The position numbers and the translations under genes were made by a program. From a virus: a stretch of 22,225 nt of DNA. The stretch lies in the IMG/VR virus record IMGVR_UViG_3300029319_000302, positions 1 through 22,225 of that record; one strand, 5' to 3'. Positions 4,763 to 19,820 of the stretch are shown one piece after another. A model generated the notes under the pieces. The model made no database searches and was not told the origin of the DNA. It was given only the letters and a program-made list of their open reading frames with translations. Numbering within the stretch: position 1 is the stretch's first letter; every line of letters begins with the position of its first letter.

Positions 4763-4774
4763 CTGTGTATAATA
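4763..4774 (+). promoter_or_regulatory. TGTGTATAAT motif before the portal gene
   Basis: CTGTGTATAATA in the 59-base gap before the portal gene. It is one of five gap copies of a TTGTGTATAT-type motif (others near 6971, 10171, 17585, 19809). TATAAT resembles a bacterial -10 box, but no -35 box is visible upstream. Read as a candidate phage late promoter; this is inference from recurrence and position. Confidence 0.55.
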
Positions 4775-4819
4775 ATTTACAATACCATTATCAATACTAT
4801 TGCCAAAGGAACAATATAA

Positions 4820-6937
4820 ATGTCAGAAGATCTATACTTGACTTGGGGTGACGACGCAGAGAGAAGTAAAGCTTATGAGCTGTCTGCTGACAATATTAAC
4901 GCATATGATGGTATACAGAAGTCATATGCCTATGACAATAGAACTTTCATAGATATAGAGACCCAAAGATCCGTAAGACCCGGCTTTAATCGCAGGGACT
5001 ACAATGCGTTTCGTCCGGGCGAAGGTATTCCGTCACAACAAAAGAAAATAGTCAAGATGTGTATGCAGGCTTATGAAAAAGTCGGCATTATTAGAAATGT
5101 TATTGACCTCATGGGTGACTTTGCTACACAGGGAATTACTCTAGTACACCCGAATAAAACAATCGAAAAGTTTTATCGTAAATGGTTTGAGCAGATTGAT
5201 GGCTTAGACCGATCAGAAAGGTTCTTGAATTATCTTTATAGGTGTGGTAATGTTCCTATCCGCAGAAGAACAGCAAAGATAAACAAGAAAAAAGAAGCGG
5301 AGCTTAAAAGAAGCACAGCTGCTCCAGATATGAAAATACAAGACATCCCGGTAACAAAAAGAGAGATCCCTTGGCGATATGATTTTTTGAATCCTCTTGC
5401 TGTTGGCATCAAGAATAAAGATGTCGCTATGTTTACTGGTGACATCGAATATGTACTCAAAGTCTCAAAGAACACAGTCAATTCATTAATGATGAATGGA
5501 GACGTAAATGGCAAAGGTCGTGACTTACCGAACTACTTAATAAAGAGATTTTCTCAAGGCGAAAGAGAAATCCCTCTAGATAAAGATAAGTTTATGATGT
5601 ATCACTACAAGAAGGATGACTGGAACGTTTGGTCAAATCCTATGATATACGCCATTCTAGATGATATTGTGATGCTCGAAAAAATGAAGCTAGCAGACTT
5701 AGCCGCTTTAGATGGAGCTATATCAAATGTCAGACTGTGGAGAATTGGTGATCTAGACCATAAGATTATTCCTACCAAGGCTGCTATTAACAAGTTAAGA
5801 GATATTCTCGCCAGTAATGTCGGCGGAGGTACTATGGACTTAGTATGGGGTCCTGAAATTGACTTTAAAGAAAGCAGCACACAAGTATACAAGTTTTTGG
5901 GGGCAGAGAAATACCAGCCAGTTCTAACTAGTATATATGCCGGACTTGGTATTCCTCCAACACTAACCGGAGCCGCTTCTGGTGGTGGATACAGCAATAA
6001 TTATGTTAGTCTCAAGACTTTAGTTGAAAGACTGGAGTACGGTAGAGAAAAACTTAAAGATTTCTGGATGAATGAAATCAAGTTAGTGCAGAAGGCTATG
6101 GGCTTTAGATTCCCAGCAGAGATACACTTTGACTCGATCATACTCTCAGATGAAGCCGCACAGAAACAACTTCTTGTTCAACTTGCCGATAGAGATATCA
6201 TATCTCACGAAACATTGCTTGAAAGATTTAGAGAGCTACCTACTATTGAGAAGATTAGAGTGAGAAGAGAAGAAAGAACTAGAACAAACGATCCGGGCGC
6301 TCCGAAGAAAGCCGGTCCTTTCCATAATCCTCAACACAAGCAGGATATGGCTAAACTAGCCATGACTAAAGACGTTCTAGATAAAGACATGTATTTGGAA
6401 AGCCTTGGCTTGCCTCCTGCAGAAGAGGAAATAGTAGAGGAAGAAAACCCTCAAACAGAGCGTATTGAGCTGGGACCTCCTCAAGAAGAAGACAATCAGC
6501 AGCCTGAAAGTCCAGAAGGCGGTAGACCATTTAACGCTAGAGACGAGCAAAAACGAAAGCAGAAAAGAGTGCTACCAAGAAGCAGTGATAACGTAGCTGC
6601 AACGCTCTGGGCATACGAAGCACAGAAGAAGATTTCCGAGTTAGTTACACCAATGGCGTTAGCTCATTTTGAAAAGAAAAACGCCAGAAGTCTCACTAAA
6701 TCAGAGTTTGATCAGCTAGAGCATCTAAAATTATGCATACTTACTGGCATAAAACCGTTTATGGAAATAGACGCTGATGTAATTAAGCAGATCATTGATT
6801 CTAATACGAGGCCATCGGAATCTTTCAGTCTTGAAGTGGATAGTGCGGTCAATAAGTTTTCTGAGACTCAAGACAGAAAACCAAGCATCGACGAAATGAG
6901 ATATATCTACGCCTCCACCTTTGCGTCGTTCTCCTAG
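4820..6937 (+). CDS. portal protein
   Basis: A 705-residue protein directly after the large terminase, with the pattern of phage portals: an N-terminal region with FRPGEGIP and RNVIDLMGDF, a central region with DWNVWSNPMIYAILDDIVMLEKMKLADL (stem and clip-like helices), and EKYQPVLTSIYAGLGIPPTLTG near 370-390, a segment typical of portals. It forms the dodecameric ring through which DNA enters and to which the connector binds. Beyond about residue 500 there is an extension: an acidic Pro/Glu/Gln linker (about 535-580), a Lys/Arg patch, then a predicted helical domain of about 120 residues. The ATG has AAAGGA at 4805-4810. Assigned from motif style and gene order. Confidence 0.9.
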   Translation: MSEDLYLTWGDDAERSKAYELSADNINAYDGIQKSYAYDNRTFIDIETQRSVRPGFNRRDYNAFRPGEGIPSQQKKIVKMCMQAYEKVGIIRNVIDLMGDFATQGITLVHPNKTIEKFYRKWFEQIDGLDRSERFLNYLYRCGNVPIRRRTAKINKKKEAELKRSTAAPDMKIQDIPVTKREIPWRYDFLNPLAVGIKNKDVAMFTGDIEYVLKVSKNTVNSLMMNGDVNGKGRDLPNYLIKRFSQGEREIPLDKDKFMMYHYKKDDWNVWSNPMIYAILDDIVMLEKMKLADLAALDGAISNVRLWRIGDLDHKIIPTKAAINKLRDILASNVGGGTMDLVWGPEIDFKESSTQVYKFLGAEKYQPVLTSIYAGLGIPPTLTGAASGGGYSNNYVSLKTLVERLEYGREKLKDFWMNEIKLVQKAMGFRFPAEIHFDSIILSDEAAQKQLLVQLADRDIISHETLLERFRELPTIEKIRVRREERTRTNDPGAPKKAGPFHNPQHKQDMAKLAMTKDVLDKDMYLESLGLPPAEEEIVEEENPQTERIELGPPQEEDNQQPESPEGGRPFNARDEQKRKQKRVLPRSSDNVAATLWAYEAQKKISELVTPMALAHFEKKNARSLTKSEFDQLEHLKLCILTGIKPFMEIDADVIKQIIDSNTRPSESFSLEVDSAVNKFSETQDRKPSIDEMRYIYASTFASFS

Positions 6938-6970
6938 TTTTTAGGCAAAATTAAACAGAAAAATCTTTTT

Positions 6971-6982
6971 TTGTGTATTATC
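6971..6982 (+). promoter_or_regulatory. TTGTGTATTAT motif before the protease/scaffold gene
   Basis: TTGTGTATTATC in the 62-base gap between portal and protease/scaffold. Same motif family as the other gap copies. It sits only 28 bases from the chosen ATG, so if it were a -10 box the transcript would start very near the ribosome binding site at 6987-6993. That is the weakest point of the promoter reading. Confidence 0.5.
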
Positions 6983-6999
6983 ATGTAAGGAGACTTTAT

Positions 7000-8556
7000 A
7001 TGAAAGCATATGCACAAGAAATACAAGATGGTCTTCAGGAATTGATTGAAAACAATACCACGATTGCGTATTGCGCTCCTGTTATTTCTGAAACCAATAC
7101 ACTAAGTACTTCCGCCGGTAAATACGAAGAAGACCGTGCGTTAGCTCTTAATTTTTTGGGTCTAGAAGATACTCAGGCCGAAAATAAAGAGCAGATAGAC
7201 TTATACTATTTAAGCTCTGTTTTAGTTAGTACCGGGTGGAATAAAAATGATGATGTTTTCGACGCACAAGAAATGTGGGAAGCACGTTCCACTCCAGAAG
7301 ATAAACAATTCAATTATATGCACAACGAAAAAGATATAATTGGTCACATAACCGCCAACTACGTTGTTGACTTTGAAGGCAACAGTTTAGATGGCGATCT
7401 TTCGTTTGCAGAGGCTGGTTCACCAACAGACTTTAATATAATTACACAGGGTGTTCTATATAAGTCTTGGAGCGATCCAGAACTACGCGAGAGAATGAAT
7501 AATATAATAGAAGAGATTGAGGAAGGAGATAGATGGTATGTATCTATGGAATGTCTGTTCCCAAATTTTGATTATGCACTGAAAGATGAAACGGGTGCAA
7601 GCAAAATTGTAAGAAGAGAGGAAGCTTCGGCGTTTTTGTCAAAGCATCTTCGCGCTTACGGAGGAACAGGGAAGTATGAGGGTTATACAGTGGGTAGATT
7701 ATTAAGAAATATATCTTTCTCTGGCAAGGGCTTGGTTTCTAAACCTGCTAATCCTCGAAGTGTCATTTTAAATGACAGTAAAAGTTTTAGTGAAAATGAT
7801 AGTGAACTAGTTGCTGTTTCATCAATAAAGGAGACTAAAATGTCCGATGTTTTACAGAAACAGTTGGAGGAAGTCAAGGCTGAACTAGCTGAAGCTCGAA
7901 CCGCCAACGAAACTATGAAGCAGGAAATGGAAGCTCAGAAAACAGAAGCGATTGAAAGTCAGTTGCAAAAGTTTGAAGAAACTATTTCTGCTAAGGATCA
8001 GGCTATTGCCGAAGTCCAAGCTCAGGTAGAAGAAGCTCTAGCAAGAGTTAAAGAACTTGAGGAAGCTCTAGCGGCTTCTGAAGCTGCTAAAGAAGAAGCA
8101 ATCGCTCAGGTTGCTGAAATCGAAAAGGCTGCTGCGCTCGAAAAGAGAGTTGCTGCTTTGACCGAAGCAGGTCTTGAAGGTGAAGAACTGGATGAGGCTA
8201 TTGCTAAATTTGAAAATCTTGATGAAGAAACTTTCGACTTTGTTGTTGCTGCAATGACGAAGAAGAAGGCGGAAAAGAAAGATGACAAAGAAAATCCTTT
8301 TGAAAAGAAGGACAAAAAAGAGGATGAAGAAGAAGCTCCAGCTATGATGAAGAAGAAAGCTGAAGTGGAAGTTCTTGAAGAAGAAGTGGACGAAGCAGAA
8401 GCTGAAGCCCAAGCAGAGGAATTAGAAGAAGCTGTAGAAGATGAAGACATTGCAATGGCAGAAGCTATTGACGATGAAGATTCCTCTGAAGAACTTCGTT
8501 CTACCGCAAGCGAGTGGTTTGGTTCTCTTCTAAAAACAACTGCGAACCTTAAGTAA
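7000..8556 (+). CDS. prohead protease-scaffold fusion
   Basis: A 518-residue protein. Residues 1 to about 260 look like a head maturation protease: LVSTGWNKNDDVF, NYMHNEKDIIGHI with candidate catalytic H108, and WYVSMECLF with candidate nucleophile S182, then GRLLRNISFSGKGLVSKPANPRS. The family (S78-like) is my inference from this H/S layout. From residue 281 to the end it is an acidic, Ala/Glu/Lys-rich coiled coil with a KKK/EEE-rich tail, as expected of a scaffold, ending in a short conserved-looking SEWFGSLLKTTANLK. I start it at ATG 7000 with AAGGAGA (6987-6993); a GTG at 6973 would add nine residues but lies inside the recurring TGTGTAT motif. The order portal, protease/scaffold, decoration, capsid is classical. 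An internal start produces a free scaffold (see 7840). Confidence 0.85.
   Translation: MKAYAQEIQDGLQELIENNTTIAYCAPVISETNTLSTSAGKYEEDRALALNFLGLEDTQAENKEQIDLYYLSSVLVSTGWNKNDDVFDAQEMWEARSTPEDKQFNYMHNEKDIIGHITANYVVDFEGNSLDGDLSFAEAGSPTDFNIITQGVLYKSWSDPELRERMNNIIEEIEEGDRWYVSMECLFPNFDYALKDETGASKIVRREEASAFLSKHLRAYGGTGKYEGYTVGRLLRNISFSGKGLVSKPANPRSVILNDSKSFSENDSELVAVSSIKETKMSDVLQKQLEEVKAELAEARTANETMKQEMEAQKTEAIESQLQKFEETISAKDQAIAEVQAQVEEALARVKELEEALAASEAAKEEAIAQVAEIEKAAALEKRVAALTEAGLEGEELDEAIAKFENLDEETFDFVVAAMTKKKAEKKDDKENPFEKKDKKEDEEEAPAMMKKKAEVEVLEEEVDEAEAEAQAEELEEAVEDEDIAMAEAIDDEDSSEELRSTASEWFGSLLKTTANLK
7827..7834 (+). promoter_or_regulatory. internal ribosome binding site for the nested scaffold
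   Basis: AAAGGAGA lies five bases before an in-frame ATG at 7840, inside the protease/scaffold gene. It is as strong as the sites used by the separate genes here and resembles the one before ATG 7000 (AAGGAGAC, then ATG). The ATG marks the border between the protease part and the coiled coil. Confidence 0.75.
7840..8556 (+). CDS. nested scaffold protein (internal in-frame start)
   Basis: Translation from ATG 7840 gives 238 residues beginning MSDVLQKQLEEVKAELAEA, the complete coiled-coil scaffold without the protease. It is in frame with the longer gene and ends at the same stop. Phage lambda makes its scaffold Nu3 from inside protease gene C in the same way, and the sequence here fits that arrangement: strong binding site, ATG at the domain border, and a need for many scaffold copies but few protease copies. 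The N-terminal 110 residues are heptad-like; the rest is Lys-rich then very acidic. That both products are made is inference. Confidence 0.72.
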   Translation: MSDVLQKQLEEVKAELAEARTANETMKQEMEAQKTEAIESQLQKFEETISAKDQAIAEVQAQVEEALARVKELEEALAASEAAKEEAIAQVAEIEKAAALEKRVAALTEAGLEGEELDEAIAKFENLDEETFDFVVAAMTKKKAEKKDDKENPFEKKDKKEDEEEAPAMMKKKAEVEVLEEEVDEAEAEAQAEELEEAVEDEDIAMAEAIDDEDSSEELRSTASEWFGSLLKTTANLK

Positions 8557-8577
8557 TTTAACAAGGAGAAATATATA

Positions 8578-9072
8578 ATGGCTCTTAAATCAGATAGAAA
8601 TGAATTACAGACTGACATTAGCTTTTTCATGAATGAAACAGCTACTAGAGGTGGTGTAGTTTCAATCTCGACTGGTGGTAGTGGTGCTGCTATGGATCAA
8701 GGCGCTGCTTTGGTTACTTACACTGCTGCCTCTGGTAAACCTCCTATTGGAATTCTTTTGAATGATATGGTTAACCTTGACCTCACACGTCAACATATTA
8801 ACCAACATAAAGATGAAGTCCAAAAGGGCGGTAAAGTAACAGTCCTTAGAAAAGGATATGTTGTAACTAACAGTGTAACGGTAGCAACCGCAGTCACCGC
8901 TGGTGATCCTGCCTATGTTACTCATGGTGGTAATATCGCTAATAGCGGTTGTATTGCTGACCATTCAGGTAACGTTGGTGCTTCAATCGGTACATTCTTA
9001 TCTAGCATAGACGAAGATGGCTACTACAAGGTTGAAATTAATCTACCTCAGTCCATCCGCGCTGCAGTATAA
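8578..9072 (+). CDS. head decoration/stabilisation protein candidate
   Basis: A 164-residue, Gly/Ala/Thr/Val-rich, beta-type protein between scaffold and major capsid genes, the usual place of capsid decoration proteins (lambda D or similar). Visible features: GGVVSISTGGSGAAMDQG near 25-42, a segment with KPPIGILLNDMVNLDL, a GKVTVLRKGYVVTN strand region, and AGDPAYVT. The pattern of a rather constant small beta barrel binding the capsid surface is typical, but I have no diagnostic motif. The start has AAGGAG at good spacing. Confident as virion protein, moderate as decoration protein. Confidence 0.65.
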   Translation: MALKSDRNELQTDISFFMNETATRGGVVSISTGGSGAAMDQGAALVTYTAASGKPPIGILLNDMVNLDLTRQHINQHKDEVQKGGKVTVLRKGYVVTNSVTVATAVTAGDPAYVTHGGNIANSGCIADHSGNVGASIGTFLSSIDEDGYYKVEINLPQSIRAAV

Positions 9073-9098
9073 TCATAGCCCATAAAGGAGAATAGATA

Positions 9099-10103
9099 AT
9101 GAATATGAAAGAACGTCCTTCTGATGAATTTATCGCATTGCTAAAGCAATCCGGTAGTTCAGATAAAGCAGTGGCTATCGAAGCCCAGCGTGAAATCGCT
9201 AAGGCTTTGGAAACACCATTGCGTAAAGGTGTCTTATTCGGTGATGTCGTAACTTCCATTTATGAAGCTATGCCACTTGAGCCGGGTGCTACACCTGAAT
9301 TTCCACTCGATCTTCTTGCACCGGGAACAGAAAGTGAGCACATTGCTTACACTAATCCGGGTCACGGTCGTATTCCAGAACGTAGCGTCGAAGGCGATTA
9401 CGTCATGGTTAACACTTACGGAATTACCAGCTCGATTGACTTCTTGCTGAAGTATGCCCGTGAAGCTAACTGGAACGTTATTGCTCGCGCAATGCAAGTT
9501 TTGGAAGCATCTTTTGTTAAGAAAATCAACGACGACGGATGGCACACTTTGCTAGCCGCATCTGTTGATAGAAATATTTTGGTCTACGATGCCGACGCAG
9601 CTGCTGGTCAGTTCACAAAGCGTTTGGTATCTCTGATGAAGACAGTTATGCGTCGTAACGGCGGTGGTAACAGCGTTACCGCTAATGGCCGATTGACTGA
9701 CATGTACCTGTCTCCAGAAGCCATCGAAGATATCCGCAACTGGGGTGTCGATCAGCTTGACGAAGTTTCACGTCGTGAAATTTACGTGGCAGCTGACGGA
9801 GCTGCTCCTTTGACGAGACTCTTCGGAGTTAACCTGCACGACTTGTTTGAGTTGGGCGATAACCAAGAGTATCAAGATTACTTTGATAATGATCTTGGTG
9901 GTTCTCTTGCTACTGGCGACGTTGAACTAGTTATTGGCTTGGATCAAGCCTCTAGCGATAGTTTCGTAATGCCAGTCAAGAAAGAAGTTGAAGTTTATGA
10001 AGACGAAGCTCTTCACAGACATCAGCGTCAAGGTTACTACGGTTGGGCCGAAATTGGCTTTGGTGTACTAGACAATAGAAGAGTTCTCGCTGGCTCCTTC
10101 TAA
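9099..10103 (+). CDS. major capsid protein
   Basis: A 334-residue protein in the capsid position, after protease/scaffold and decoration genes and before a strong terminator. Features fit an HK97-fold capsid protein: a helical N-terminal arm (about 1-45), LFGDVVTSIYEAMPLEPGATPEFPLDLLAPG, a long central helix region (about 120-150, REANWNVIARAMQVLEASFVKKIND), TDMYLSPEAIEDIRNWG, and a C-terminal EVYEDEALHRHQRQGYYGWAEIGFGVLDNRRV, the kind of segment seen at the end of phage capsid proteins. The ATG follows AAAGGAG. A second ATG lies two codons on. No obvious cleavage site for the prohead protease can be read by eye. Confidence 0.88.
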   Translation: MNMKERPSDEFIALLKQSGSSDKAVAIEAQREIAKALETPLRKGVLFGDVVTSIYEAMPLEPGATPEFPLDLLAPGTESEHIAYTNPGHGRIPERSVEGDYVMVNTYGITSSIDFLLKYAREANWNVIARAMQVLEASFVKKINDDGWHTLLAASVDRNILVYDADAAAGQFTKRLVSLMKTVMRRNGGGNSVTANGRLTDMYLSPEAIEDIRNWGVDQLDEVSRREIYVAADGAAPLTRLFGVNLHDLFELGDNQEYQDYFDNDLGGSLATGDVELVIGLDQASSDSFVMPVKKEVEVYEDEALHRHQRQGYYGWAEIGFGVLDNRRVLAGSF

Positions 10104-10128
10104 TACTTGTACGCTCAAGTTTAATAAG

Positions 10129-10163
10129 AACCGTCCTGTTAGAGATAATAGGGCGGTTTTTTT
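10129..10163 (+). terminator. rho-independent terminator after the capsid gene
   Basis: Stem AACCGTCCT (10129-10137) pairs with AGGGCGGTT (10150-10158), nine pairs with one T-G, around a 12-base loop, followed by a run of T (10157-10163). It lies 25 bases after the capsid stop and is the only clear terminator on the + strand in this window, so it probably ends the head operon. A TTGTGTATAT motif follows at once. Confidence 0.88.
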
Positions 10164-10170
10164 ATTGTTT

Positions 10171-10182
10171 TTGTGTATATAA
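10171..10182 (+). promoter_or_regulatory. TTGTGTATAT motif before the first cassette
   Basis: TTGTGTATATAA lies just behind the terminator and 46 bases before the next ATG (measured from the TGTG). A terminator followed by this motif is the strongest argument that the motif is a promoter: the downstream fibre genes need a new start. No -35 box is visible. Confidence 0.62.
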
Positions 10183-10217
10183 AAGTAAGCCCAGAATAAC
10201 CAAAAGGAGCATATACT

Positions 10218-10994
10218 ATGGAGCTATTGATAAAAGTAAACAGCGCAGATGGTGATAAATCATATAAAGATGGCGACATTGTTCAGGCGTTTTCTAATGA
10301 TAGGATATTATTAGCTAACGCTCAATCTATTTGTAGTGTAGATAACTTTAACCTAGACCCAGTATCTGGTTTAAGATATAATGATACATTGTTGATGAAA
10401 TATATGGAAACTTCGAGTCTTTATAGAGTTGAAAGAATAAATGCAACCTCGGCAAGAAGAATAAATCTTTTGACTTCAGAAGAAGATATAATAAGCAATT
10501 CGCCAAACTTAGACGGTGAAGCTATATGGATAGAAGATTACTTGGCCAGAAGACTAAAAAGCAATAGACACAGGATCTTTGGCTCAGTAGGATCAGAAAT
10601 TTGGTATAGTGGATCTAGACCTATAGATCTTGATATTATTTGGAATCATATCGAATCAGGGTCTGATAATCTTAAACAAGACAATACATCTTGGAAGTTT
10701 ACATCTTTGGAAAAAAGGCATTTTTACACTATGAATTGCAGAGGCAATGCTGGAGGAATCATCCAAGAGCTCTCTGGTCATACTGTTGTGGATCGACAAA
10801 ATCCTGTAATTACGGGTGATGAAGTCATAGCAGCAAAAAGAAAATGGCAAGTTCCTTACTGGGACTTAGGTGCAAACGTTGATGATATTAGAAATTACGA
10901 CAAAGAAGTTGACGGAAGAGTTGAGATTAATGACAGACCGTTTGTGGATGACATTAACGTAGACAAAATTGAAGCTGGAATAATAGTACTATAA
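10218..10994 (+). CDS. unknown structural-region protein, family P copy 1
   Basis: A 258-residue protein that I do not recognise. It is clearly related to the 276-residue protein at 16746-17576. Shared blocks: YKDGDI(V/I)QAF near 16-25; a D-(T/P)-LL segment; ERIN; NL(L/I)TSEE; PN-DGE; RRLK; WY--SR; WNxIE; EKR(H/Y)F; ELSG-TV; AKR(K/R)W-VPYWDL; and VDD(I/L)RN. Conserved aromatic/charged blocks over the whole length suggest one globular fold. No signal peptide or membrane segment is seen. It opens a cassette of fibre-type genes, so a virion role such as fibre attachment is plausible but unproven. The start has AAAGGAG. Confidence 0.75.
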   Translation: MELLIKVNSADGDKSYKDGDIVQAFSNDRILLANAQSICSVDNFNLDPVSGLRYNDTLLMKYMETSSLYRVERINATSARRINLLTSEEDIISNSPNLDGEAIWIEDYLARRLKSNRHRIFGSVGSEIWYSGSRPIDLDIIWNHIESGSDNLKQDNTSWKFTSLEKRHFYTMNCRGNAGGIIQELSGHTVVDRQNPVITGDEVIAAKRKWQVPYWDLGANVDDIRNYDKEVDGRVEINDRPFVDDINVDKIEAGIIVL

Positions 10995-11002
10995 AATAAA
11001 AA

Positions 11003-11016
11003 CCAGCGACGGCTGG
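11003..11016. other. small GC-rich hairpin between genes
   Basis: CCAGC-GACG-GCTGG, a perfect 5-bp stem with a 4-base loop, in the 56-base gap before the 138-residue protein. Read on the + strand it is preceded by an A-rich run and has no T run after it. Read on the - strand it is followed by TTTTTATTTT and would look like a terminator, although no - strand gene is present. It may be an mRNA-processing or stability hairpin. This is the only gap above about 40 bases that lacks the TGTGTAT motif. Confidence 0.5.
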
Positions 11017-11050
11017 CAACTAACATTACAATTAATAGGAGTATTTTGAT

Positions 11051-11467
11051 ATGACTGCTATGTCAAATTATTTAGAAAATAAGCTTATAGACCATATCTT
11101 GAGGGGCACATCTTTTTCTGCTCCGAGTAACATTTACGTTGGTCTGGTAGGAAAGTATGATGCAGCTCAACTAGAAGCTGGCACACTAACTCACGAACTT
11201 TCTGGCGGCTCTTACGCTAGATCATCTGGTATTAAAGGCGATGCATATTGGAGTGCAGGCTCTACTAATGGGCTCACCGATAATGAGCAGGCAGTAACTT
11301 TTGCTGCAGCATCAAACGAATGGGGTCATGTATCAGGACTGTTTGTTGCAGACGCATCCTCCGGCGGAAACGTTCTTTTGTATGGGCAGCTATCAGCTAC
11401 TAAGTTTGTAGAGAACGGCGATCAATTTGTTATTTCAGCAGGTGATTTAGACATTACTTTTGCTTAA
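11051..11467 (+). CDS. small conserved phage structural protein (fibre-associated)
   Basis: A 138-residue protein. It begins MTAMSNYLENKLIDHILRGTSF and continues with SNIYVGL, a pattern that I recognise from a common family of small phage proteins, often labelled tail or tail-fibre protein, located next to fibre genes. The rest is beta-type: a Gly/Ala-rich part, then EWGHVSGLFVAD and VLLYGQLSA. It lies directly before the long fibre, 22 bases away, with its own GGAG site. Exact role unknown. A second in-frame ATG (codon 4) could be the start. Confidence 0.68.
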   Translation: MTAMSNYLENKLIDHILRGTSFSAPSNIYVGLVGKYDAAQLEAGTLTHELSGGSYARSSGIKGDAYWSAGSTNGLTDNEQAVTFAAASNEWGHVSGLFVADASSGGNVLLYGQLSATKFVENGDQFVISAGDLDITFA

Positions 11468-11489
11468 TTTTTTATAAGGAGCAGAGGCA

Positions 11490-14400
11490 ATGGCTTTAGT
11501 ACTTAAAGATAGAGTAAAAGAGACTTGCACCGGAACAAGTGGCGACATGGCACTTACTGGCGCAGTGTCTGGCTATGTAGCCTTCGATGCAGATGCAACC
11601 TTTGACGGCAACACAACGTACTATGCTTTAGAAGATGCAGATGGCACAAAGTGGGAAGTTGGCTTGGGCACACTCAGTGCAGACTCCACAACTCTTACCA
11701 GAACTACAATTCTTGCAACTCAAGCTAGTTTCACAGATACCACCAGACAAACATTTAGTAGTGGAACACACACAATCTATTGTGTTTATCCTGCAGGCAA
11801 ATCTGTACATTTAGATGGTAGTGGCGTTTTATCTCATAGCATTGTTAATGCCGATATAAGTAATAGTGCAGCTATAGCTATAGCAAAACTTGCCTCTTCT
11901 AGTATAGGCGTTAGCGATGGGTCTAGCACTACTGAAATTAGCCTCGGTCAAGATATACAGTTTCGTGGAACTTCCAATGAAGTAGAAGTAGCCGAAGCTT
12001 CTGGAACGATCACTGTTGGTTTACCTAGTAGCATTACGGCGAATGTTACTGGAGACCTGACAGGCAATGCTGACACCGCTACAAATGCTACCAATGCTAC
12101 TCACGTAGCTGTCGCAGACAATGAAAGTACTGACGAAAACAACCTTATAACTTTCATAGAAGATGCCAGTGCTACAGGAAATGTAGGATTGGAATCGGAT
12201 GGCGACTTCCATTACAACCCATCGACAGGAACCGTCACAGCGACAATATTTAAGGGTAACATAGATGCGGTTGATGGAGATTTTGATGGTACGCTTGAGG
12301 CAGATGCCATCACAATAGGCGGAACAGCCCTGAACACCGTCATTGCTGGAGTGACTGTCACTAATGCAACTAACGCAGTTACTGCTACAAATGCCAATCA
12401 TGTAGCTGTTGCGGATAATGAGAGCACCGATGAGAACAATTTAATCCCATTCATAGAAGATGCTAGCGCGACAGGAAACGTAGGTCTGGAATCGGATGGC
12501 GATTTTCACTACAACCCATCTAGCGGAACTATTACGGCGACAATATTTAAAGGCAACATAGATGCAGTTGACGGTGATTTTGATGGTACACTCGAAGCAG
12601 ACGCTATTACCGTAGGAGGTGTCGCCCTCAATACAGTTATAGCGGGAGTTACTGTCACTAACGCTACCAACGCTACCAATGCTGTCACCGCCACAAACGC
12701 CAACCATGTAGCTGTTGCAGATAACGAGAGCACCGACGAGAATAACCTCATAACATTTATCGAAGATGCGAGTGCTACAGGCAACGTAGGGTTAGAATCA
12801 GACGGTGATTTTCACTATAATCCATCTACTGGAACTGTCACAGCAACGATATTCAAAGGCAATATAGACGCTGTAGACGGCGACTTTGATGGAACGCTAG
12901 AGGCTGACGCAATTACTATCGGTGGAACTGCATTGAATACAGTTATCGCCGGAGTAACCGTTGCAAACGCAACTAATGCGGTTACTGCCACAAATGCTAA
13001 TCATGTGGCTGTTGCAGACAATGAGAGCACAGATGAAAACAATTTGATTCCATTTATTGAGGACGCCAGTGCCACGGGGAATGTAGGTTTAGAGTCAGAT
13101 GGAGACTTTCACTACAATCCTTCTAGCGGTACAGTTACCGCAACCATATTCAAAGGAAATATAGATGCAGTTGACGGGGACTTTGATGGAACACTTGAAG
13201 CAGATGCCATTACGATTGGTGGAACTGCGCTAGACACACATATTGCTGGGGTCACAGTTACTAATGCTACAAACGCTGTTAACGCTACTCATATTAATGT
13301 AGCTGATAACGAGAGTACGGACGAAAACAATCTCATAACCTTCATTGAGGATGCTAGCGCTACAGGAAATGTGGGTTTGGAATCTGACGGTGACTTCCAC
13401 TATAATCCATCAACGGGGACAGTCACAGCTACTATTTTTAAAGGTAACATAGACGCTGTAGATGGTGACTTTGACGGCACTCTAGAGGCTGACGCAATCA
13501 CGGTGGGAGGTACTGCTCTTAATACAGTTATCGCAGGAGTGACAGTTACCAACGCTACTAACGCAGCTCATGTTTCTGTGGCTGATAATGAGAGTACAGA
13601 TGAAAATAACCTCATACCCTTCATCGAGGACGCTAGCGCTACGGGCAATGTTGGATTAGAATCTGACGGAGATTTCCATTATAACCCTTCTAGTGGCACA
13701 GTTACTGCCACTATATTTAAGGGTAATATAGACGCGGTAGACGGAGATTTTGACGGGACTTTAGAAGCGGATGCAATTACAATAGGCGGAACCGCACTAG
13801 ATACACATATCGCTGGAGTCACTGTTACCAATTCAACCAATGCAGTTAATGCCACTCATGTTTCCGTGGCCGATAATGAAAGCACCGACGAAAACAACCT
13901 GATAACATTTATAGAAGACGCTAGCGCTACGGGTAATGTAGGACTAGAGTCAGATGGCGACTTTCATTATAATCCCTCTACTGGTACGGTTACGGCTACT
14001 ATATTTAAAGGTAACATTGACGCGGTAGATGGAGATTTCGATGGAACGTTAGAGGCCGATGCTATTACTGTAGGTGGAACCGCCCTGAACACAGTCATTG
14101 CTGGAGTAACCGTTACCAATGCCACTAACGCCGCGCACGTTGCAGTCGCTGATAATGAGAGCACTGACGAGAACAATCTTATAACCTTTATTGAAGACGC
14201 CAGCGCAACAGGTAATGTTGGTCTAGAATCTGATGGGGATTTCCATTATAACCCAAGTACTGGTACAGTTACTGCTACGATTTTTAAAGGTAATATAGAT
14301 GCCGTAGATGGAGATTTCGATGGGACTTTAGAAGCCGACGCTATTACGATTGGTGGAACAGCATTAAACACGGTTATTGCAGGAGTAACGGTAACTAACG

Positions 14401-15344
14401 CTACCAATGCAGTTACGGCAACAAACGCTAATCATGTCGCAGTTGCGGATAACGAAAGCACAGATGAGAATAATCTGATACCATTCATTGAAGATGCGAG
14501 TGCCACTGGTAACGTTGGCCTAGAGTCTGATGGAGATTTTCATTACAATCCGTCTAGTGGCACAATAACAGCCACGATCTTCAAGGGTAACATTGATGCT
14601 GTAGATGGAGACTTTGACGGAACCCTAGAAGCAGATGCAATCACAATAGGTGGTACAGCGATAGGTTCTATCTACTCAGCTATTGCAGGTAGCTCTAGTA
14701 TTGTCACCACTGGAGCTTTGGACTCTGGTTCTATTACTTCTGGGTTTGGAAATATTGACAATGGTAGTAGTAGTATTGCTTGTGGGTCTCTTGATGTATC
14801 CGATGGAAACATAACAAATGTTGGAGACATAGATTGTGACAGTATTAGTGTGGCAGATGCTGCAAACGGCTTGAACATTGACGTATCTGGGGCAAATAAC
14901 GGAACTGCTAAGATTACCCTTAAAGATAACGTTGCTACCGCTTTAGATGTTACTGAGGCTAGCAACTCTTACATGAAGTTTACAACCACAGACAATGCCA
15001 GTAGAATTGTAACTAACGTCGGTGTTGTAGGAAACACAACTGCACTTACTAGTCAGTCTGGTAGTGTTGTTATTAATGCTGCTTTGGGCAACTATTTCAC
15101 TGTAGCCACAAGTGGAAATATAACAGGTTTAGATATACAAAACGCCGTAGTGGGTCAAAAAATATTAATTAGATTTGCATGGGGAGGAGATCATTCTCTC
15201 GCCTTTACAGATACAGTCATATGGCCCGGAGGAACAGCCCCCGGAACCACAGCAAGTGGCGTAGATATGATTGGATTTATATGTACAACTGCCTCATCTG
15301 CGTTTGATGGATTTATAGTTGGTGAAGATATTAAGAGTTCATAA
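11490..15344 (+). CDS. long fibre/adhesin with nine near-identical repeats
   Basis: A 1284-residue fibre protein. Residues 1 to about 112 form a module known from many phage fibre proteins (RVKETCTGTSGD, GNTTYYALEDADGTKWEVG, TILATQ, VYPAGKSVHLDGSG), probably virion attachment. Residues about 113-204 lead into Asn/Ala/Thr-rich sequence. Residues 205 to about 1057 are nine tandem repeats of 93-102 residues, each with VADNESTDENNLI, FIEDASATGNVGLESDGDFHYNPS, TATIFKGNIDAVDGDFDG and EADAIT blocks. Residues 1058-1284 form a different C-terminal part with VTNVGVVGNTTAL, LIRFAWGGDHSLAFTD and DMIGFICTT, probably the distal tip. It is expected to be a trimeric extended fibre for host binding (inference). 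Start with AAGGAG. The repeats are remarkable for silent recoding. Confidence 0.88.
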   Translation: MALVLKDRVKETCTGTSGDMALTGAVSGYVAFDADATFDGNTTYYALEDADGTKWEVGLGTLSADSTTLTRTTILATQASFTDTTRQTFSSGTHTIYCVYPAGKSVHLDGSGVLSHSIVNADISNSAAIAIAKLASSSIGVSDGSSTTEISLGQDIQFRGTSNEVEVAEASGTITVGLPSSITANVTGDLTGNADTATNATNATHVAVADNESTDENNLITFIEDASATGNVGLESDGDFHYNPSTGTVTATIFKGNIDAVDGDFDGTLEADAITIGGTALNTVIAGVTVTNATNAVTATNANHVAVADNESTDENNLIPFIEDASATGNVGLESDGDFHYNPSSGTITATIFKGNIDAVDGDFDGTLEADAITVGGVALNTVIAGVTVTNATNATNAVTATNANHVAVADNESTDENNLITFIEDASATGNVGLESDGDFHYNPSTGTVTATIFKGNIDAVDGDFDGTLEADAITIGGTALNTVIAGVTVANATNAVTATNANHVAVADNESTDENNLIPFIEDASATGNVGLESDGDFHYNPSSGTVTATIFKGNIDAVDGDFDGTLEADAITIGGTALDTHIAGVTVTNATNAVNATHINVADNESTDENNLITFIEDASATGNVGLESDGDFHYNPSTGTVTATIFKGNIDAVDGDFDGTLEADAITVGGTALNTVIAGVTVTNATNAAHVSVADNESTDENNLIPFIEDASATGNVGLESDGDFHYNPSSGTVTATIFKGNIDAVDGDFDGTLEADAITIGGTALDTHIAGVTVTNSTNAVNATHVSVADNESTDENNLITFIEDASATGNVGLESDGDFHYNPSTGTVTATIFKGNIDAVDGDFDGTLEADAITVGGTALNTVIAGVTVTNATNAAHVAVADNESTDENNLITFIEDASATGNVGLESDGDFHYNPSTGTVTATIFKGNIDAVDGDFDGTLEADAITIGGTALNTVIAGVTVTNATNAVTATNANHVAVADNESTDENNLIPFIEDASATGNVGLESDGDFHYNPSSGTITATIFKGNIDAVDGDFDGTLEADAITIGGTAIGSIYSAIAGSSSIVTTGALDSGSITSGFGNIDNGSSSIACGSLDVSDGNITNVGDIDCDSISVADAANGLNIDVSGANNGTAKITLKDNVATALDVTEASNSYMKFTTTDNASRIVTNVGVVGNTTALTSQSGSVVINAALGNYFTVATSGNITGLDIQNAVVGQKILIRFAWGGDHSLAFTDTVIWPGGTAPGTTASGVDMIGFICTTASSAFDGFIVGEDIKSS
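12102..14660 (+). repeat. nine tandem 93-102-aa repeats, conserved in protein but recoded in DNA
   Basis: Repeat units start (first base of the His codon) at 12102, 12399, 12705, 13002, 13290, 13569, 13857, 14136 and 14433. Lengths are 99, 102, 99, 96, 93, 96, 93 and 99 residues; the last unit is incomplete. Protein differences fall at few positions: LITF or LIPF, NPSTG or NPSSG, ITIGG or ITVGG, LNTVIAG or LDTHIAG, and the length of the ATN/TNA-rich linker. DNA differences are massive and mostly in third positions. Confidence 0.95.
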
Positions 15345-15353
15345 GGGTGACAC

Positions 15354-16736
15354 ATGGCAACAACTACAGTAAGTGTTGGATCAAATCAAAGTATAGCTAC
15401 CGTTACGCCAAGTTCAGCTAGCGGTAGTAATCCATATACAGTAGCGTTTGGATCTAGTCCCGGAAGCAATGTCGCCGTAGGAGACATCGTTACTATGGAT
15501 GATTCTGCCAACACAGGGACAACATTTATTTATCTTTTAACTGGCATATCTGGAAGTGATTACACTCTGAAATATTGCTCTGGTGGAACTGGAGCTGATT
15601 CACCTACTAACATCACAGATGAATATGGTGACCAACAGGATGCGGTATTCAAAAGAGCCTTTTCTACAATTACTTTGTTTGAGGCTATGGTTGATGACTC
15701 AAGCCCTTCTTATTGGGGAAGTAGCGACGATGTTGTTGGTGAGCTACATTCAGACTCTACCTTCACAGACGCAACTGTAACATTTGACAGTAAGCAAAGT
15801 TTATCTTCTGTAAAATTAACTGTTAATTCTGACGATAGGCATGACGGTACAGCAGAAAGTGGAGCCTTACTAAAGCCCACATCTGGTTCTGGCCACAACG
15901 TAGGTATCATCAAAATAGGAATAGACGATTTTACCATTGAATGGCTAGATATCAGTGCGGATAGCCTAGACTCTACAAACACTAATAAGTTTATAAACAT
16001 TTCTACAGGAGCAGGAGATTGCACCATAAGAAATATGCTTATACATGATAAAGGAGGCAATCCCGGTAGTACTGGCCCAGTAGCTATCGCTAGCGGATTG
16101 TCTTTGACCACTTCAGAAAACTGGTACTTTCTCAATAATATTATTTATAACATGATAGAGACTAGTAATGATAGCGCAATGGGTATAAATATAAGGTCGT
16201 TCATAGGAAGTCTTTACATCTATAACAATACGATATATAAGCTAACATCCCAAGGAGGAAGTAAAGACGCTGTTGGGATGAGATTTGGAGATGGCACTCA
16301 CATTCAAGCAAACATAAAAAATAATATAGTTGCAGGTTTAACTGAGGGCGATATAGCCGCCGCTTATTGGATGGATGAGACTCCAAACTCGAACAGAGTG
16401 TTAAACTCCGCTACTAACCTTTCAGATGATACTACCGATGCAGCAAAGGATGCTGAGGATTTTGACGTTAATAAAAATGACTCAACGGCATTGATAGGCA
16501 AAACTCTTAGTCAAATAGATTTTGTATCTACATCAGCAGGATCGGAAGACTTACATCTGGACACTTCCTCCGTGTGTCTAGAGGCTGGGACAGATTTAGG
16601 AACAACTGGCGGTGTCAATATAGATATAAACGGTGTTGACAGAGATGCCACTGGAGTTACTTGGGATATTGGAGCTCACCAAAAAAGTACAGCAGCTACC
16701 ACAGGAAGTCCCGCATTTTTTCTATTCATGGATTAG
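15354..16736 (+). CDS. beta-helix-like adhesion protein with anchor-Q-type C-terminal motif, copy 1
   Basis: A 460-residue Ser/Thr/Asp/Asn-rich protein. The middle part carries short strand-turn periods such as IGIDDFTIEWLDIS, CTIRNMLIHDKGG, WYFLNNIIYNM, LYIYNNTIYKL and ANIKNNIVAGL, the pattern of a right-handed parallel beta-helix as in phage tailspikes. Near the C-terminus: DLHLDTSSVCLEAGTDLG, then DINGVDRDATGVTWDIGAHQ. The D-I-x-G-x-x-R...D-I-G-A form is typical of the bacterial choice-of-anchor Q domain. The last residues (SPAFFLFMD) are hydrophobic. It ends the first cassette and is related to the 352-residue protein at 18748. Host-receptor or polysaccharide binding is inference; no catalytic site is seen. 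The ribosome binding site is weak (AAGGGTGA). Confidence 0.75.
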   Translation: MATTTVSVGSNQSIATVTPSSASGSNPYTVAFGSSPGSNVAVGDIVTMDDSANTGTTFIYLLTGISGSDYTLKYCSGGTGADSPTNITDEYGDQQDAVFKRAFSTITLFEAMVDDSSPSYWGSSDDVVGELHSDSTFTDATVTFDSKQSLSSVKLTVNSDDRHDGTAESGALLKPTSGSGHNVGIIKIGIDDFTIEWLDISADSLDSTNTNKFINISTGAGDCTIRNMLIHDKGGNPGSTGPVAIASGLSLTTSENWYFLNNIIYNMIETSNDSAMGINIRSFIGSLYIYNNTIYKLTSQGGSKDAVGMRFGDGTHIQANIKNNIVAGLTEGDIAAAYWMDETPNSNRVLNSATNLSDDTTDAAKDAEDFDVNKNDSTALIGKTLSQIDFVSTSAGSEDLHLDTSSVCLEAGTDLGTTGGVNIDINGVDRDATGVTWDIGAHQKSTAATTGSPAFFLFMD

Positions 16737-16745
16737 GAGAGCCTT

Positions 16746-17576
16746 ATGGAAGTTATAGTAAAAATAAATGATGGCCCAGTAGCCAGCTCTTACAAAGACG
16801 GTGATATCATTCAGGCTTTTACTTTGGATGAAATATATTATCATCACGCACAGCAGAAGTGTCATGTGAAAAATTTTGGCCTTGAAACCAACGGCTCTAG
16901 AACCCCTGATCCTCTGCTCATAAACTTCCTCGAAAGAACCAAGACATACAAGTTTGAGAGAATTAATTCAAACTATGTAAAAAGAACCAACCTCATAACT
17001 AGCGAGGAAACTATTCTTGGGAAGACTCCGAATGAAGACGGTGAAAGGATTAATCCTTATGAATATATAACAAGAAGACTAAAGAACAAAAACCATTTAA
17101 TTTTTAGAGCTGCTAATGGATTTGCCTACTGGTACGGGAAGAGCAGAAGTGATGTAGATATTAATGCAGTCTGGAATGATATAGAAACATACAGTGATCA
17201 CTTAAAGTCTGAACACAGTAGTTTTCCGTTTTCAGATATTGAAAAAAGATACTTTGCGGCTATAAATACTTCTGGTAGGAGTTATACTGGTGACTCATTT
17301 ACTAGGGTCGAGCTTTCGGGAGACACTGTTCATACTCGACAAGAGATCGCTCTTGAAAATCCTCCTGAAGAAATACCAGATGATTACGACCCAGTTGTTG
17401 TAGCAAAAAGAAGGTGGTTTGTACCCTACTGGGATTTGACTACATCACTTGGTAACTCTGTAGATGACTTAAGAAATCCCAACAAGGAATGTGACTGTAG
17501 AAAAGAAATGGACGAAAGAGAGCACATTGATATATTAACTTTTGATAAAGTGACAGAAGGAATAGTAAGTATATAA
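16746..17576 (+). CDS. unknown structural-region protein, family P copy 2
   Basis: A 276-residue homologue of the protein at 10218-10994, with the shared blocks in the same order: SYKDGDIIQAF at 15-25, FERIN, NLITSEE, PNEDGERI, RRLKNKNHLIF, YWYGKSRSDVDI, WNDIE, EKRYF, ELSGDTVHTRQE, AKRRWFVPYWDL and SVDDLRN. It has about 18 extra residues, among them a Pro/Glu-rich insert (NPPEEIPDDYDP) before the AKRRW block and a CDCRKEMDERE segment near the end. The two copies differ widely elsewhere, so the duplication is old. Function unknown. It starts with TAGGAG ten bases after the previous stop, so it is probably read from the same transcript as the beta-helix protein. Confidence 0.75.
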   Translation: MEVIVKINDGPVASSYKDGDIIQAFTLDEIYYHHAQQKCHVKNFGLETNGSRTPDPLLINFLERTKTYKFERINSNYVKRTNLITSEETILGKTPNEDGERINPYEYITRRLKNKNHLIFRAANGFAYWYGKSRSDVDINAVWNDIETYSDHLKSEHSSFPFSDIEKRYFAAINTSGRSYTGDSFTRVELSGDTVHTRQEIALENPPEEIPDDYDPVVVAKRRWFVPYWDLTTSLGNSVDDLRNPNKECDCRKEMDEREHIDILTFDKVTEGIVSI

Positions 17577-17584
17577 TCTTATTA

Positions 17585-17596
17585 TTGTGTATATAG
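17585..17596 (+). promoter_or_regulatory. TTGTGTATAT motif before the Ala/Ser repeat gene
   Basis: TTGTGTATATAG in the 56-base gap, with the TGTG 47 bases before the ATG. It matches the copy at 10171 in 11 of 12 positions and has nearly the same distance to the gene start. No -35 box is visible. Candidate promoter. Confidence 0.58.
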
Positions 17597-17632
17597 ATTA
17601 GTTAACAACCCACAACATAAAGGAGAAGGCAT

Positions 17633-18421
17633 ATGAGTTTTTCAGGAGCTCCATTTTCGTCAACTCCCTTCTCTTCTAGTGGGAATGTAATAACTGCTGC
17701 TGCAACATTAACCGCCAGTGCCACATTAACCGCAGAGGGAACGTTACCAGCACAGACAATATCTGGAGCAGCTAGTCTGTCTGCAACTGGTGCCGTATCC
17801 TCAGAAGCTAAAGTTACAAGGTTTGCTTCAGCAGCGGCATCATGCAGTGGTTCTTTAGCTGCTACTGGATTTGTAAAAAGAAACGCTTCAGCCTCACTTT
17901 CGGCGTCAGCTACATTATCAGCTTCAGCTAATGCTAAAAACTTTGCGTCAGCATCGCTTACAGCCTCTGGCTCTGTTTCGGCATCAGGCAGCGTTAAGAG
18001 ATTTGCCTCTGCATCACTATCTGCTAGCGCTTCCACATCTCAAACTGCAAAAGTGGACAGGTTTGCATCAGCATCACTTTCTGCCAGTGGAGCATGTTCT
18101 GCGTCGGGTAAAGTGTCCAAGCTCGCTGCGGCTTCGTTAACAGCTTCAGCTTCTTTGTCGGCATTAGGCGGGTTTGACATACAGGGAGCTGCTTCGTTAA
18201 CTGCCTCAGCTACACTTGATGCTACAGCAGAAATAAACCAATTACTAATAACCAAAGAATTTATTGTGTATATTAATACGTCTGATAGCTTTATTTGTAG
18301 TATAAATACAGACTTTGAGGAAACCGCCTCCATAAACACAGGCATGGAATTGGTTGCCTCTGTAGATACAAATAAGACTGTAGACGCTAGTATAGAAACA
18401 TTTGCTACTTTCGAGGGTTAG
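17633..18421 (+). CDS. Ala/Ser-rich protein with 20-residue and 10-residue repeats
   Basis: A 262-residue protein. The first 43 residues (MSFSGAPFSSTPFSSSG, then Ala/Thr-rich) lead into eight in-register 20-residue repeats at 44-203 with consensus FASASLSASGxxSASGxVKR, and then into five 10-residue repeats at 212-261 with consensus xSINTxxxxx (VYINT, CSINT, ASINT, ASVDT, ASIET). No charged catalytic residues are conserved, so it is structural: probably a thin elongated stalk or virion surface protein. I do not know the family name. Synonymous codons vary between repeats, as in the long fibre. Strong AAAGGAG before the ATG; two bases separate its stop from the next gene. Confidence 0.72.
   Translation: MSFSGAPFSSTPFSSSGNVITAAATLTASATLTAEGTLPAQTISGAASLSATGAVSSEAKVTRFASAAASCSGSLAATGFVKRNASASLSASATLSASANAKNFASASLTASGSVSASGSVKRFASASLSASASTSQTAKVDRFASASLSASGACSASGKVSKLAAASLTASASLSALGGFDIQGAASLTASATLDATAEINQLLITKEFIVYINTSDSFICSINTDFEETASINTGMELVASVDTNKTVDASIETFATFEG
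17762..18241 (+). repeat. eight 60-base repeats (20 residues each)
   Basis: Protein repeats start at residues 44, 64, 84, 104, 124, 144, 164 and 184 of the Ala/Ser-rich protein. Core (F/N/L)ASASL(S/T)AS is best conserved; a basic residue often closes the unit (VTR, VKR, VKR, VDR, VSK). FASASL is coded differently from copy to copy. Confidence 0.85.
18264..18275 (+). other. in-gene copy of the TTGTGTATAT motif
   Basis: TTGTGTATATTA lies inside the Ala/Ser repeat gene, where it codes for part of FIVYIN, about 150 bases before the BppU-like gene. It matches the gap motif in its first ten positions. It may be a promoter for the two downstream genes or a chance match. Confidence 0.3.
18266..18415 (+). 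repeat. five 30-base repeats (10 residues each)
   Basis: Decapeptide period in the C-terminus of the Ala/Ser-rich protein: VYINTSDSFI, CSINTDFEET, ASINTGMELV, ASVDTNKTVD, ASIETFATFE. A different period and composition from the preceding 20-residue repeats. Confidence 0.75.
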
Positions 18422-18423
18422 AT

Positions 18424-18735
18424 ATGGCTAGTAATGAAATACATGTAGGTGATATTGGAACTACTCTCCAATTAACCTTTAAAGATGATGGATCTGTTGT
18501 AGATATCAGCTCCGCAAATAATATATATATTATACTACAGGGTCCCGATGACAATGCTTCACAAAAGACTGGAGCTTTAGTTACCGATGGAACTGACGGT
18601 AAAGCTAAGTATGTTACAGTATCAAATGATATTGATACTGCAGGTACGTGGAAAATTCAAGGTAAGGTAGTATTCGCTAGTACCACTTACCACAGCGATG
18701 TTCATAATTTTACAGTATATAAAAACTTATCATAG
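18424..18735 (+). CDS. BppU N-terminal-like small beta-sandwich protein
   Basis: A 103-residue protein: IHVGDIGTTLQLTFKDDGSVVDISSANNIYIILQGPDD, then GALVTDGTDGKAKYVTVSNDIDTAGTWKIQGKV. The G-D-x-G-x-x-L...F-x-x-DGS-x-V-D and T-D-G-x-D-G-K-x-x-Y...T-A-G-x-W patterns resemble the N-terminal domain of phage baseplate upper protein BppU, an Ig-like domain found alone in many phages. It probably helps to attach fibres or forms part of the tail or baseplate. GAGGG precedes the ATG and the gap to the previous gene is two bases, so coupled translation is likely. Confidence 0.62.
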   Translation: MASNEIHVGDIGTTLQLTFKDDGSVVDISSANNIYIILQGPDDNASQKTGALVTDGTDGKAKYVTVSNDIDTAGTWKIQGKVVFASTTYHSDVHNFTVYKNLS

Positions 18736-18747
18736 GAATATTGTTAG

Positions 18748-19806
18748 ATGGCAACAGTTGCAAAATCAATAGGGACAACAGGTAGAGACTACAGTACTAT
18801 AACAGCTTGGGAAGCAGATCTTTCCAATGGCTCAGTTTATAGTTCTGGAGATACAGCTCAAGGCGTATGTTATGCTGATAGCGTATTCACTGAAAATGTA
18901 ACTATTAGTGACGCCTCCGCTATTCCGACAAATATACAGCTCACCGCTGCGGATGGACAAAAGCATGACGGAACTGCAGGATCTGGAGTTGTGGTCAAGC
19001 CTTCATCTACCAGCTCCTATATAATTAATGTGCAAGAACCAAATACTGATGTATCCTTTTTAGAATTAAACGGCAACGGCACAGGTAGATTTGGTTTTTT
19101 CTGCACCACTAGCCTCACCGGGACTGTACTTAGAAATTGTATTATCCATAATATTAGATCGACATCAGATACAGGCGGTACGGTGTCTGTCATGAGAAAT
19201 AGGTCCGGCATGACATTTATGAACAACTTTGTCTTTAACTGTACTTCGGGTACTGACGGAAGCATGCGGGTTCACGACACAGAAAGTTCCGTAGTTACCA
19301 ATATATTTAATTGCACATACTATTACTTGCCAGTCGATGACGCAGCAGAAGGCTCAGCTTATTTGTTTTATCAAACATTTAGAACCACTGGAGCGACTGG
19401 TAAAAATGTCTTGGCTTATAGATATCACACATTTTCTGCAGATCCAATAGTTGCCGGTGCGACAGCTGATTACTGGGGAGCTGTTGGCGCAATAAGTAAC
19501 GTAACAAATGTAACCACAGAAGCCTATGCCGATGCATTTGTAGACACCTCAACAAGTGATCCTGACCTGCACTTAAAGTCAGGCACAGATCTTATAGGGG
19601 CGGGTGTTGACTTAGGCACTACTCCAACTAATGTTAATATAGATATAGATGGAGGAGACAGGGATGCAGCTGGGACGGCTTGGGATTTGGGTGCAGACCA
19701 GTTTAATCTAGCCCCAACCTCTGCATCAGGAAATGGGAAATACAGTAGTAGGTTAAACCTGTTTTTCTTTGGGGCTCAGGGTTTAGGATCGTTTTCAACA
19801 GTATAA
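18748..19806 (+). CDS. beta-helix-like adhesion protein with anchor-Q-type C-terminal motif, copy 2
   Basis: A 352-residue protein related to that at 15354. It opens with AKSIGTTGRDYSTITAWEADL, a form common at the start of beta-helix proteins with repeated-event motifs. The core shows strand-turn periods (VSFLELNGNG, TVLRNCIIHNI, MTFMNNFVFNC, VVTNIFNCTYYY). The end carries DPDLHLKSGTDLIGAGVDLG and DIDGGDRDAAGTAWDLGADQF, aligned with the copy-1 motif. The last 25 residues contain LNLFFFGAQGLG, a hydrophobic tail. KHDGTAGSGVVVKPS matches RHDGTAESGALLKPT in copy 1, so the relation covers the N-terminal half too. Likely receptor-binding or spike-like; no enzymatic residues identified. Weak ribosome binding site. 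Confidence 0.75.
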   Translation: MATVAKSIGTTGRDYSTITAWEADLSNGSVYSSGDTAQGVCYADSVFTENVTISDASAIPTNIQLTAADGQKHDGTAGSGVVVKPSSTSSYIINVQEPNTDVSFLELNGNGTGRFGFFCTTSLTGTVLRNCIIHNIRSTSDTGGTVSVMRNRSGMTFMNNFVFNCTSGTDGSMRVHDTESSVVTNIFNCTYYYLPVDDAAEGSAYLFYQTFRTTGATGKNVLAYRYHTFSADPIVAGATADYWGAVGAISNVTNVTTEAYADAFVDTSTSDPDLHLKSGTDLIGAGVDLGTTPTNVNIDIDGGDRDAAGTAWDLGADQFNLAPTSASGNGKYSSRLNLFFFGAQGLGSFSTV

Positions 19807-19808
19807 TT

Positions 19809-19820
19809 TTGTGTATATGT
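19809..19820 (+). promoter_or_regulatory. TTGTGTATAT motif before the connector gene
   Basis: TTGTGTATATGT in the 47-base gap after the second cassette, with the TGTG 44 bases before the next ATG. Fifth gap copy of the motif. It marks the border between the fibre cassettes and the connector/neck genes. Confidence 0.57.

Follow-up and report, generated by a model that had tools for sequence, protein, structure and literature searches.

A conserved gap motif as a candidate late promoter in uncultured, mostly marine phages, and a small sigma-like protein linked to it

Introduction

Sigma-70 promoters of the extended -10 type read TGnTATAAT and can dispense with a -35 box. The late promoters of phage T4 consist of a short element, TATAAATA, at -13 to -6, which is read by gp55 with the help of the clamp, and those of phage Aeh1 carry CTAAATA and are served by a diverged gp55 (PMC1524935). 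Here we describe a short motif with the core TTGTGTATA that recurs in the gaps between structural genes of an uncultured phage, and we compare it with these systems. It was found in a window of 22,225 nucleotides (nt), bases 1-22225 of the 30,707-base IMG/VR record IMGVR_UViG_3300029319_000302 (called G000), and we consider it together with a small sigma-like protein, termed B, that is encoded close to the start of the structural module.

The resemblance to T4 lies in the organization: a short element of the -10 type without a -35 box, placed tens of bases before structural genes on the presumed late strand, and a small phage sigma, for which B is the candidate. The differences are a core TTGTGTATA with an invariant GTGTA in place of TATAAATA, and a B gene that lies within the putative late module itself. 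Aeh1 provides a precedent for the joint divergence of a late -10 element and its sigma, but its core is still of the TAAATA type. With the extended -10 promoter the motif shares a TG upstream of a TATA element; unlike that promoter, it has a spacing that is off by one (TG-TG-TATA), an invariant second G, and a distribution restricted to one module. B, for its part, is short and has no region-4 match, unlike the phage sigmas of phrog_351 and phrog_1740.

The phages in question form a widespread, abundant, uncultured and mostly marine group with hundreds of contigs in IMG/VR. Their closest terminase relative among 50,697 phage records has about 26% identity.

Motif copies in the window

TGTGTAT is present in five of the six window gaps longer than 40 bases, in every case on the + strand and at the five positions named in the original prediction, which had been made from the letters of the window. 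The features of these gaps, including one further copy inside an open reading frame (ORF), are listed below; RNA starts are predictions.

4763..4772, + strand: putative promoter copy 1, CTGTGTATAA, between the terminase stop codon, which it directly follows, and the portal gene (ATG 4820); RNA start predicted at ~4779
6971..6980, + strand: putative promoter copy 2, TTGTGTATTA, before ATG 7000 of a probable prohead protease/scaffold gene; predicted start ~6987, leader of ~13 nt with AAGGAG
10126..10161, + strand: intrinsic terminator after the major capsid gene, with putative promoter copy 3 directly behind it; fold z -5.1
10171..10180, + strand: putative promoter copy 3, exact TTGTGTATAT, before ORF 10218-10994; predicted start ~10187
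10995..11050, + strand: the sole gap >40 bases without the motif; small GC hairpin at ~11003-11017
17585..17594, + strand: putative promoter copy 4, exact TTGTGTATAT, before ORF 17633-18421; predicted start ~17601
18264..18273, + strand: exact TTGTGTATAT within ORF 17633-18421; coding background for this 10-mer ~0.01/kb
19809..19818, + strand: putative promoter copy 5, exact TTGTGTATAT, directly after a stop codon and before ORF 19854-20366; predicted start ~19825

The hairpin in the sixth gap and the copy just behind the capsid terminator are also as predicted, and the distances from copies 1-5 to the ATG (57, 29, 47, 48 and 45 bases) closely match the 44-56 and 28 bases that had been claimed. 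When the gaps were replaced by first-order Markov versions, TGTGTAT occurred in a mean of 0.046 gaps and in a maximum of 2 over 20,000 trials, compared to the 5 observed. Beyond the window, the record has another 8.5 kb with two further exact copies of TTGTGTATAT, each in a gap (G000:23062 and 26667). Over the whole 30.7-kb record, 9 gaps are 35 bases or longer, and 7 of them carry the motif. The bare 7-mer is in only mild excess over the whole window (8 found, 3.8 expected), because it also occurs in ORFs, at 18264, at 5058 inside a + strand ORF, and at 13801 on the - strand; the signal is one of placement. The copy at 18264 is probably a chance occurrence and possibly an internal promoter for gene 18424, of which 6 of 14 orthologues have TGTGTA within 90 nt upstream. 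In the relatives, TGTGTA precedes the gene after gap 10995-11050 in 3 of 9 cases.

Distribution and conservation in relatives

Searching with the capsid and the terminase gave at least 295 and at least 599 relatives, respectively; 156 loci were recovered from viral contigs, and five large relatives (94-145 kb) were read whole. Removal of redundant loci left 66 non-redundant contigs (1.43 Mb) for statistics, and genes were called with a simple hexamer-based ORF caller, the output of which is rough; a single wrongly called pair of ORFs in the window was mended by hand. The original prediction had named a density as high in coding sequence as in gaps among the observations that would speak against a promoter, and this was not seen: the density of TGTGTATA is 1.83/kb for gaps and 0.033/kb for coding sequence, a difference of ~55-fold, and 133 copies are in the sense of the downstream gene compared to 5 opposed. 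A count of all 8-mers made without prior assumptions ranked TTGTGTAT first (150 gaps, 5.3 expected) and placed TGTGTATA among the top. Expectation-maximisation gave a T-rich upstream flank, TTGTGTAT followed by A/T, a weak stretch, and then T at position 15 and A/G at position 16 counted from the first T; the logo core is TTGTGTATW, with sites in 65 of the 66 contigs. Position 16 is a purine in each of the five window copies, and the T-purine step 15-16 bases on is the probable start site. After refinement the consensus reads TTGTGTATA, with a T-rich flank upstream, and the core occurs in the variants TTGTGTATA, TTGTGTAAT and GGTGTATAA. An upstream A-tract in the pooled logo was dropped as a general feature, as it came mainly from particular types of orthologous gaps.

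Three types of gaps keep the motif even at protein identities as low as 48-60%. Directly behind the stop codon of terminase, most relatives whose gap could be read retain TTGTGTA, even where portal identity has dropped to 55%, and the leader that follows diverges; the variants at this position include TTGTGTAATAAT and TTGCGTATAGT. Upstream of the protease-like gene (ATG 7000), the last 70 nt contain TGTGTA in 55 of 60 orthologous regions and its reverse complement in none of the 60. Within 230 nt after the capsid gene, TGTGTA is found in 48 of 49 relatives, often straight behind a terminator. Less complete is the record for the gene after copy 5 (ORF 19854-20366), with TGTGTA upstream of 10 of 18 orthologues. 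For the genes at 205, 2757, 8578, 9099, 20382, 20922, 21434 and 25687, no relative has TGTGTA in the preceding 90 bases, as expected for positions internal to operons. The original prediction had counted the short leader at 6971 against itself. This objection dissolves, since the motif ends 16-19 nt before the ATG in many relatives, which makes a ~13-nt leader starting just before AAGGAG a conserved arrangement.

A separate observation concerns the portal leader (window 4773-4819 and the orthologous gaps), in which CAATAnnATT is repeated at a spacing of ~12 nt between the motif and the ribosome site in dozens of relatives.

The absence of a -35 box, part of the original prediction, was borne out. 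TTGACA-like hexamers (at least 5 of 6 matches) at a spacing suited to a -35 box are rarer upstream of the motif than in shuffled sequence (4.8% compared to 9.2%). Outside the three recurrent gap types the motif is the sole conserved sequence, with no upstream hexamer, and in the terminase-portal gaps the -35 position falls within the terminase coding sequence.

Strand and module specificity

The large relatives have their structural genes together in a block on one strand and almost everything else on the opposite strand. The fitted motif is present in 38 of 59 structural-strand gaps and in 6 of 134 opposite-strand gaps (Fisher p 6e-19). Pairs of the sigma-70 elements TTGACA/TATAAT have the reverse distribution: 43 of 121 gaps on the opposite strand (8.5 expected) and 3 of 55 on the structural strand (2.6 expected). 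This split implies two promoter classes in the group, the motif being that of the virion genes. The promoters of the opposite strand, presumably early, have a peculiarity of their own, namely a conserved TGMCGATA block in the TTGACA-TATAAT spacer of ~30 gaps (L166-L180; G001, G002; e.g. G001:7568, G002:5296), which looks like an operator or a spacer-read element common to an early regulon.

The system was also sought in the Microcystis phage MaeS, a distant terminase relative, and no sign of it was seen: its 49 kb contain three + strand copies of TTGTGTAT, and most of its genes, including terminase, are on the other strand.

Protein B and other sigma-like proteins

A phage sigma factor, for which the original prediction had suggested a search, is represented by a candidate in all eight large relatives, each of which has a Sigma70_r2 (PF04542) match above cut-off near the start of the structural module. 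This protein, B, is encoded by the second gene of the module, with one small acidic ORF ahead of it and a motif copy ahead in 5 of 5 genomes inspected. B is complete or partial in 30 of the 66 contigs. Among 66 B loci, GTGTATA is found upstream on the sense strand in 53 and on the other strand in 6, and more distant relatives have the variant TTTTGGTGTATAAT. A contig that overlaps the window at 99.6-99.7% identity and extends to the left, IMGVR_UViG_3300030419_003054, places B and its putative promoter 0.6-1.4 kb upstream of the window, with B ending 0.6 kb before base 1; the B operon in this contig opens with TTTTTTTGTGTATAG.

B has ~166 residues in the clade of the window and about 166-180 overall, with a strongly conserved region 2. 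The assignment of domain 2 is based on Pfam and VIA-align. By the latter, the B model gives Z 8-10 with sigma domain 2 structures and superposes on sigma domain 2 bound to -10 DNA (3ugp) with Z 8.4 and 1.7 A over 68 residues; Foldseek returned no match at E <0.001 for B as a whole. No region 4 match (PF04545) was obtained for B, the model of which ends in three helices, one fewer than the four of sigma-4. We infer from the model that these may represent a reduced domain 4 from which one helix was lost.

Two further families of small sigma-like proteins, A1 (G001, G003, G004) and A2 (G001, G002), occur in some relatives, with their genes on the early strand (G001:83107, G003:85485, G004, G002:95183, G001:116480), so that some genomes have three sigma-like genes. 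All three proteins match phrog_351 and/or phrog_1740 over sigma region 2, B weakly and A2 clearly, and A2 carries both regions 2 and 4. Outside the group, tblastn of B against the 50,697 phage records gave no match, and a scan of genome contigs gave weak matches only, mostly in actinobacterial metagenome-assembled genomes. As to polymerases, no RNA polymerase beta-prime gene was found in a search with a positive control; T7-type RNA polymerase (PF00940) had no match in the eight large relatives, in a search where no positive control gave a signal.

B resembles T4 gp55 in a manner that is suggestive only. The gp55 family phrog_234 matches only G001, at the B locus, with E 0.007 (T4 control, 2.5e-70), and a profile comparison of B with gp55 gives a probability of 8% over 33 residues. 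The gp55 structure (7d7c) has a Foldseek E of 1.2 to B and is not among the VIA-align matches listed. With T4 itself as a yardstick, most of the late genes with a copy of TATAAATA have it 22-36 nt upstream of their start, a placement like that of the motif here; in the relatives, TATAAATA is only 3x denser in gaps than in coding sequence and equal in both orientations, so that these gaps do not follow the T4 consensus. A sliding clamp like gp45 (PF02916, PF00712) had no match in the eight large relatives, a weak test in which PF02916 was used without a proper T4-type control. As the core differs from TATAAATA and B matches the gp55 family without significance, the system appears related to that of T4 in logic and not to be a member of it.

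Other features of the window

Directly upstream of terminase (window 205-2757) are genes for a GDP-mannose 4,6-dehydratase, an HNH endonuclease, an ERCC4-type nuclease and a ClpP-like protease. The ORFs 10218-10994 and 16746-17576 are paralogous (42% identity), as are 15354-16736 and 18748-19806 (29%), and these similarities suggest duplicated cassettes. Between them, at 11490-15344, an ORF of 1284 amino acids is made up of long repeats of ~300 bases, the copies of which are nearly alike in protein and show heavy synonymous variation.

Discussion

We consider it probable that the motif is a late promoter with a -10 region core of TTGTGTATA, and that it is read by the host RNA polymerase together with a phage sigma, B. 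The original prediction of a phage late promoter that lacks a -35 box and needs a phage factor is thereby supported: the motif is specific to gaps and to one strand, it is confined to the structural module, and a sigma-like protein is linked to it. B is named as the reader because a promoter with only a -10 element fits a sigma without recognizable domain 4, and because B is present wherever the motif is. In such a mechanism, host core polymerase with B would open the DNA at GTGTATA, with sigma domain 2 melting and reading the -10 element and a degenerate domain 4 fitting the absence of a -35 box. The first transcribed base would be the purine ~16 bases on from the motif's first T, some 8 bases past TATA, and initiation would recur ahead of the portal, protease, post-capsid and tail operons, once right behind the capsid terminator. 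The early genes on the opposite strand would be transcribed by host sigma-70 from TTGACA/TATAAT promoters.

Several points weigh against this interpretation. Promoter function is predicted here from sequence, the contigs are related and the counts therefore non-independent, and the gene calls behind the gap and coding counts come from a simple, purpose-written ORF caller. The profile match of B to gp55 is not significant, and the C-terminal part of B may be a reduced domain 4. Furthermore, B is located inside the module that it would control, so its first expression requires another promoter or leak, neither of which was found, and A1 or A2, on the opposite strand of some relatives, could be the reader instead.

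This last possibility, in which A1, A2 or an activator that binds the T-rich flank guides host polymerase to TTGTGTATA and B is otherwise employed, is the most durable of the alternatives, and we regard it as unlikely. The early strand is the usual place for a late regulator made before the late genes, and A2 with its two sigma regions would suit the role. Both proteins are, however, patchy in distribution, and all large relatives examined have B along with the motif; G005, possibly incomplete, has the motif and B as its sole Sigma70_r2 match.

It is less likely still that host sigma-70 reads the motif as an extended -10 promoter with no phage factor. The TG beside TATA, the T-rich upstream flank, and a distance to the predicted start that suits a -10 element would all agree with this. 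Besides the departures in spacing and second G noted above, however, the consensus TGTGTATA is poorly conserved after TATA, where TGnTATAAT continues, and the motif is nearly absent from the very strand on which sigma-70 promoters abound.

A signal for RNA processing or protein binding at operon starts, rather than a promoter, could explain the strand specificity and the proximity to ribosome sites in some gaps, but we hold it to be highly improbable. No notable RNA fold was seen around copy 1 and no Rfam match in the window, little RNA would be left to process where copies are directly behind a terminator, and a copy is also found ahead of the first gene of the whole module. Chance or the A/T-rich composition of the gaps, for which one could cite the mild enrichment of the bare 7-mer, is refuted by the composition-matched gaps, by the gap and coding densities, and by conservation in relatives, and its probability is negligible.

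If B is the reader, its position behind its own copy of the motif would make late transcription self-amplifying once B is first expressed. We propose tentatively, and with slightly more doubt than belief, a late switch of this kind, in which a minimal sigma, its domain 4 vestigial, would promote expression of its own gene through an undescribed -10-only TTGTGTATA element, as a class separate from T4 gp55/TATAAATA. Among the titles and hit counts from open-licence PMC literature, there was no report of the motif as a promoter.

The motif serves as a marker for operons and late genes in these genomes. With B it makes up a concrete sigma-promoter pair that is testable with purified proteins although no isolate exists. 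If correct, our interpretation would add a further case, unlike T4 in sequence, of late transcription from a -10 element only, by a sigma that has no functional -35 reader.

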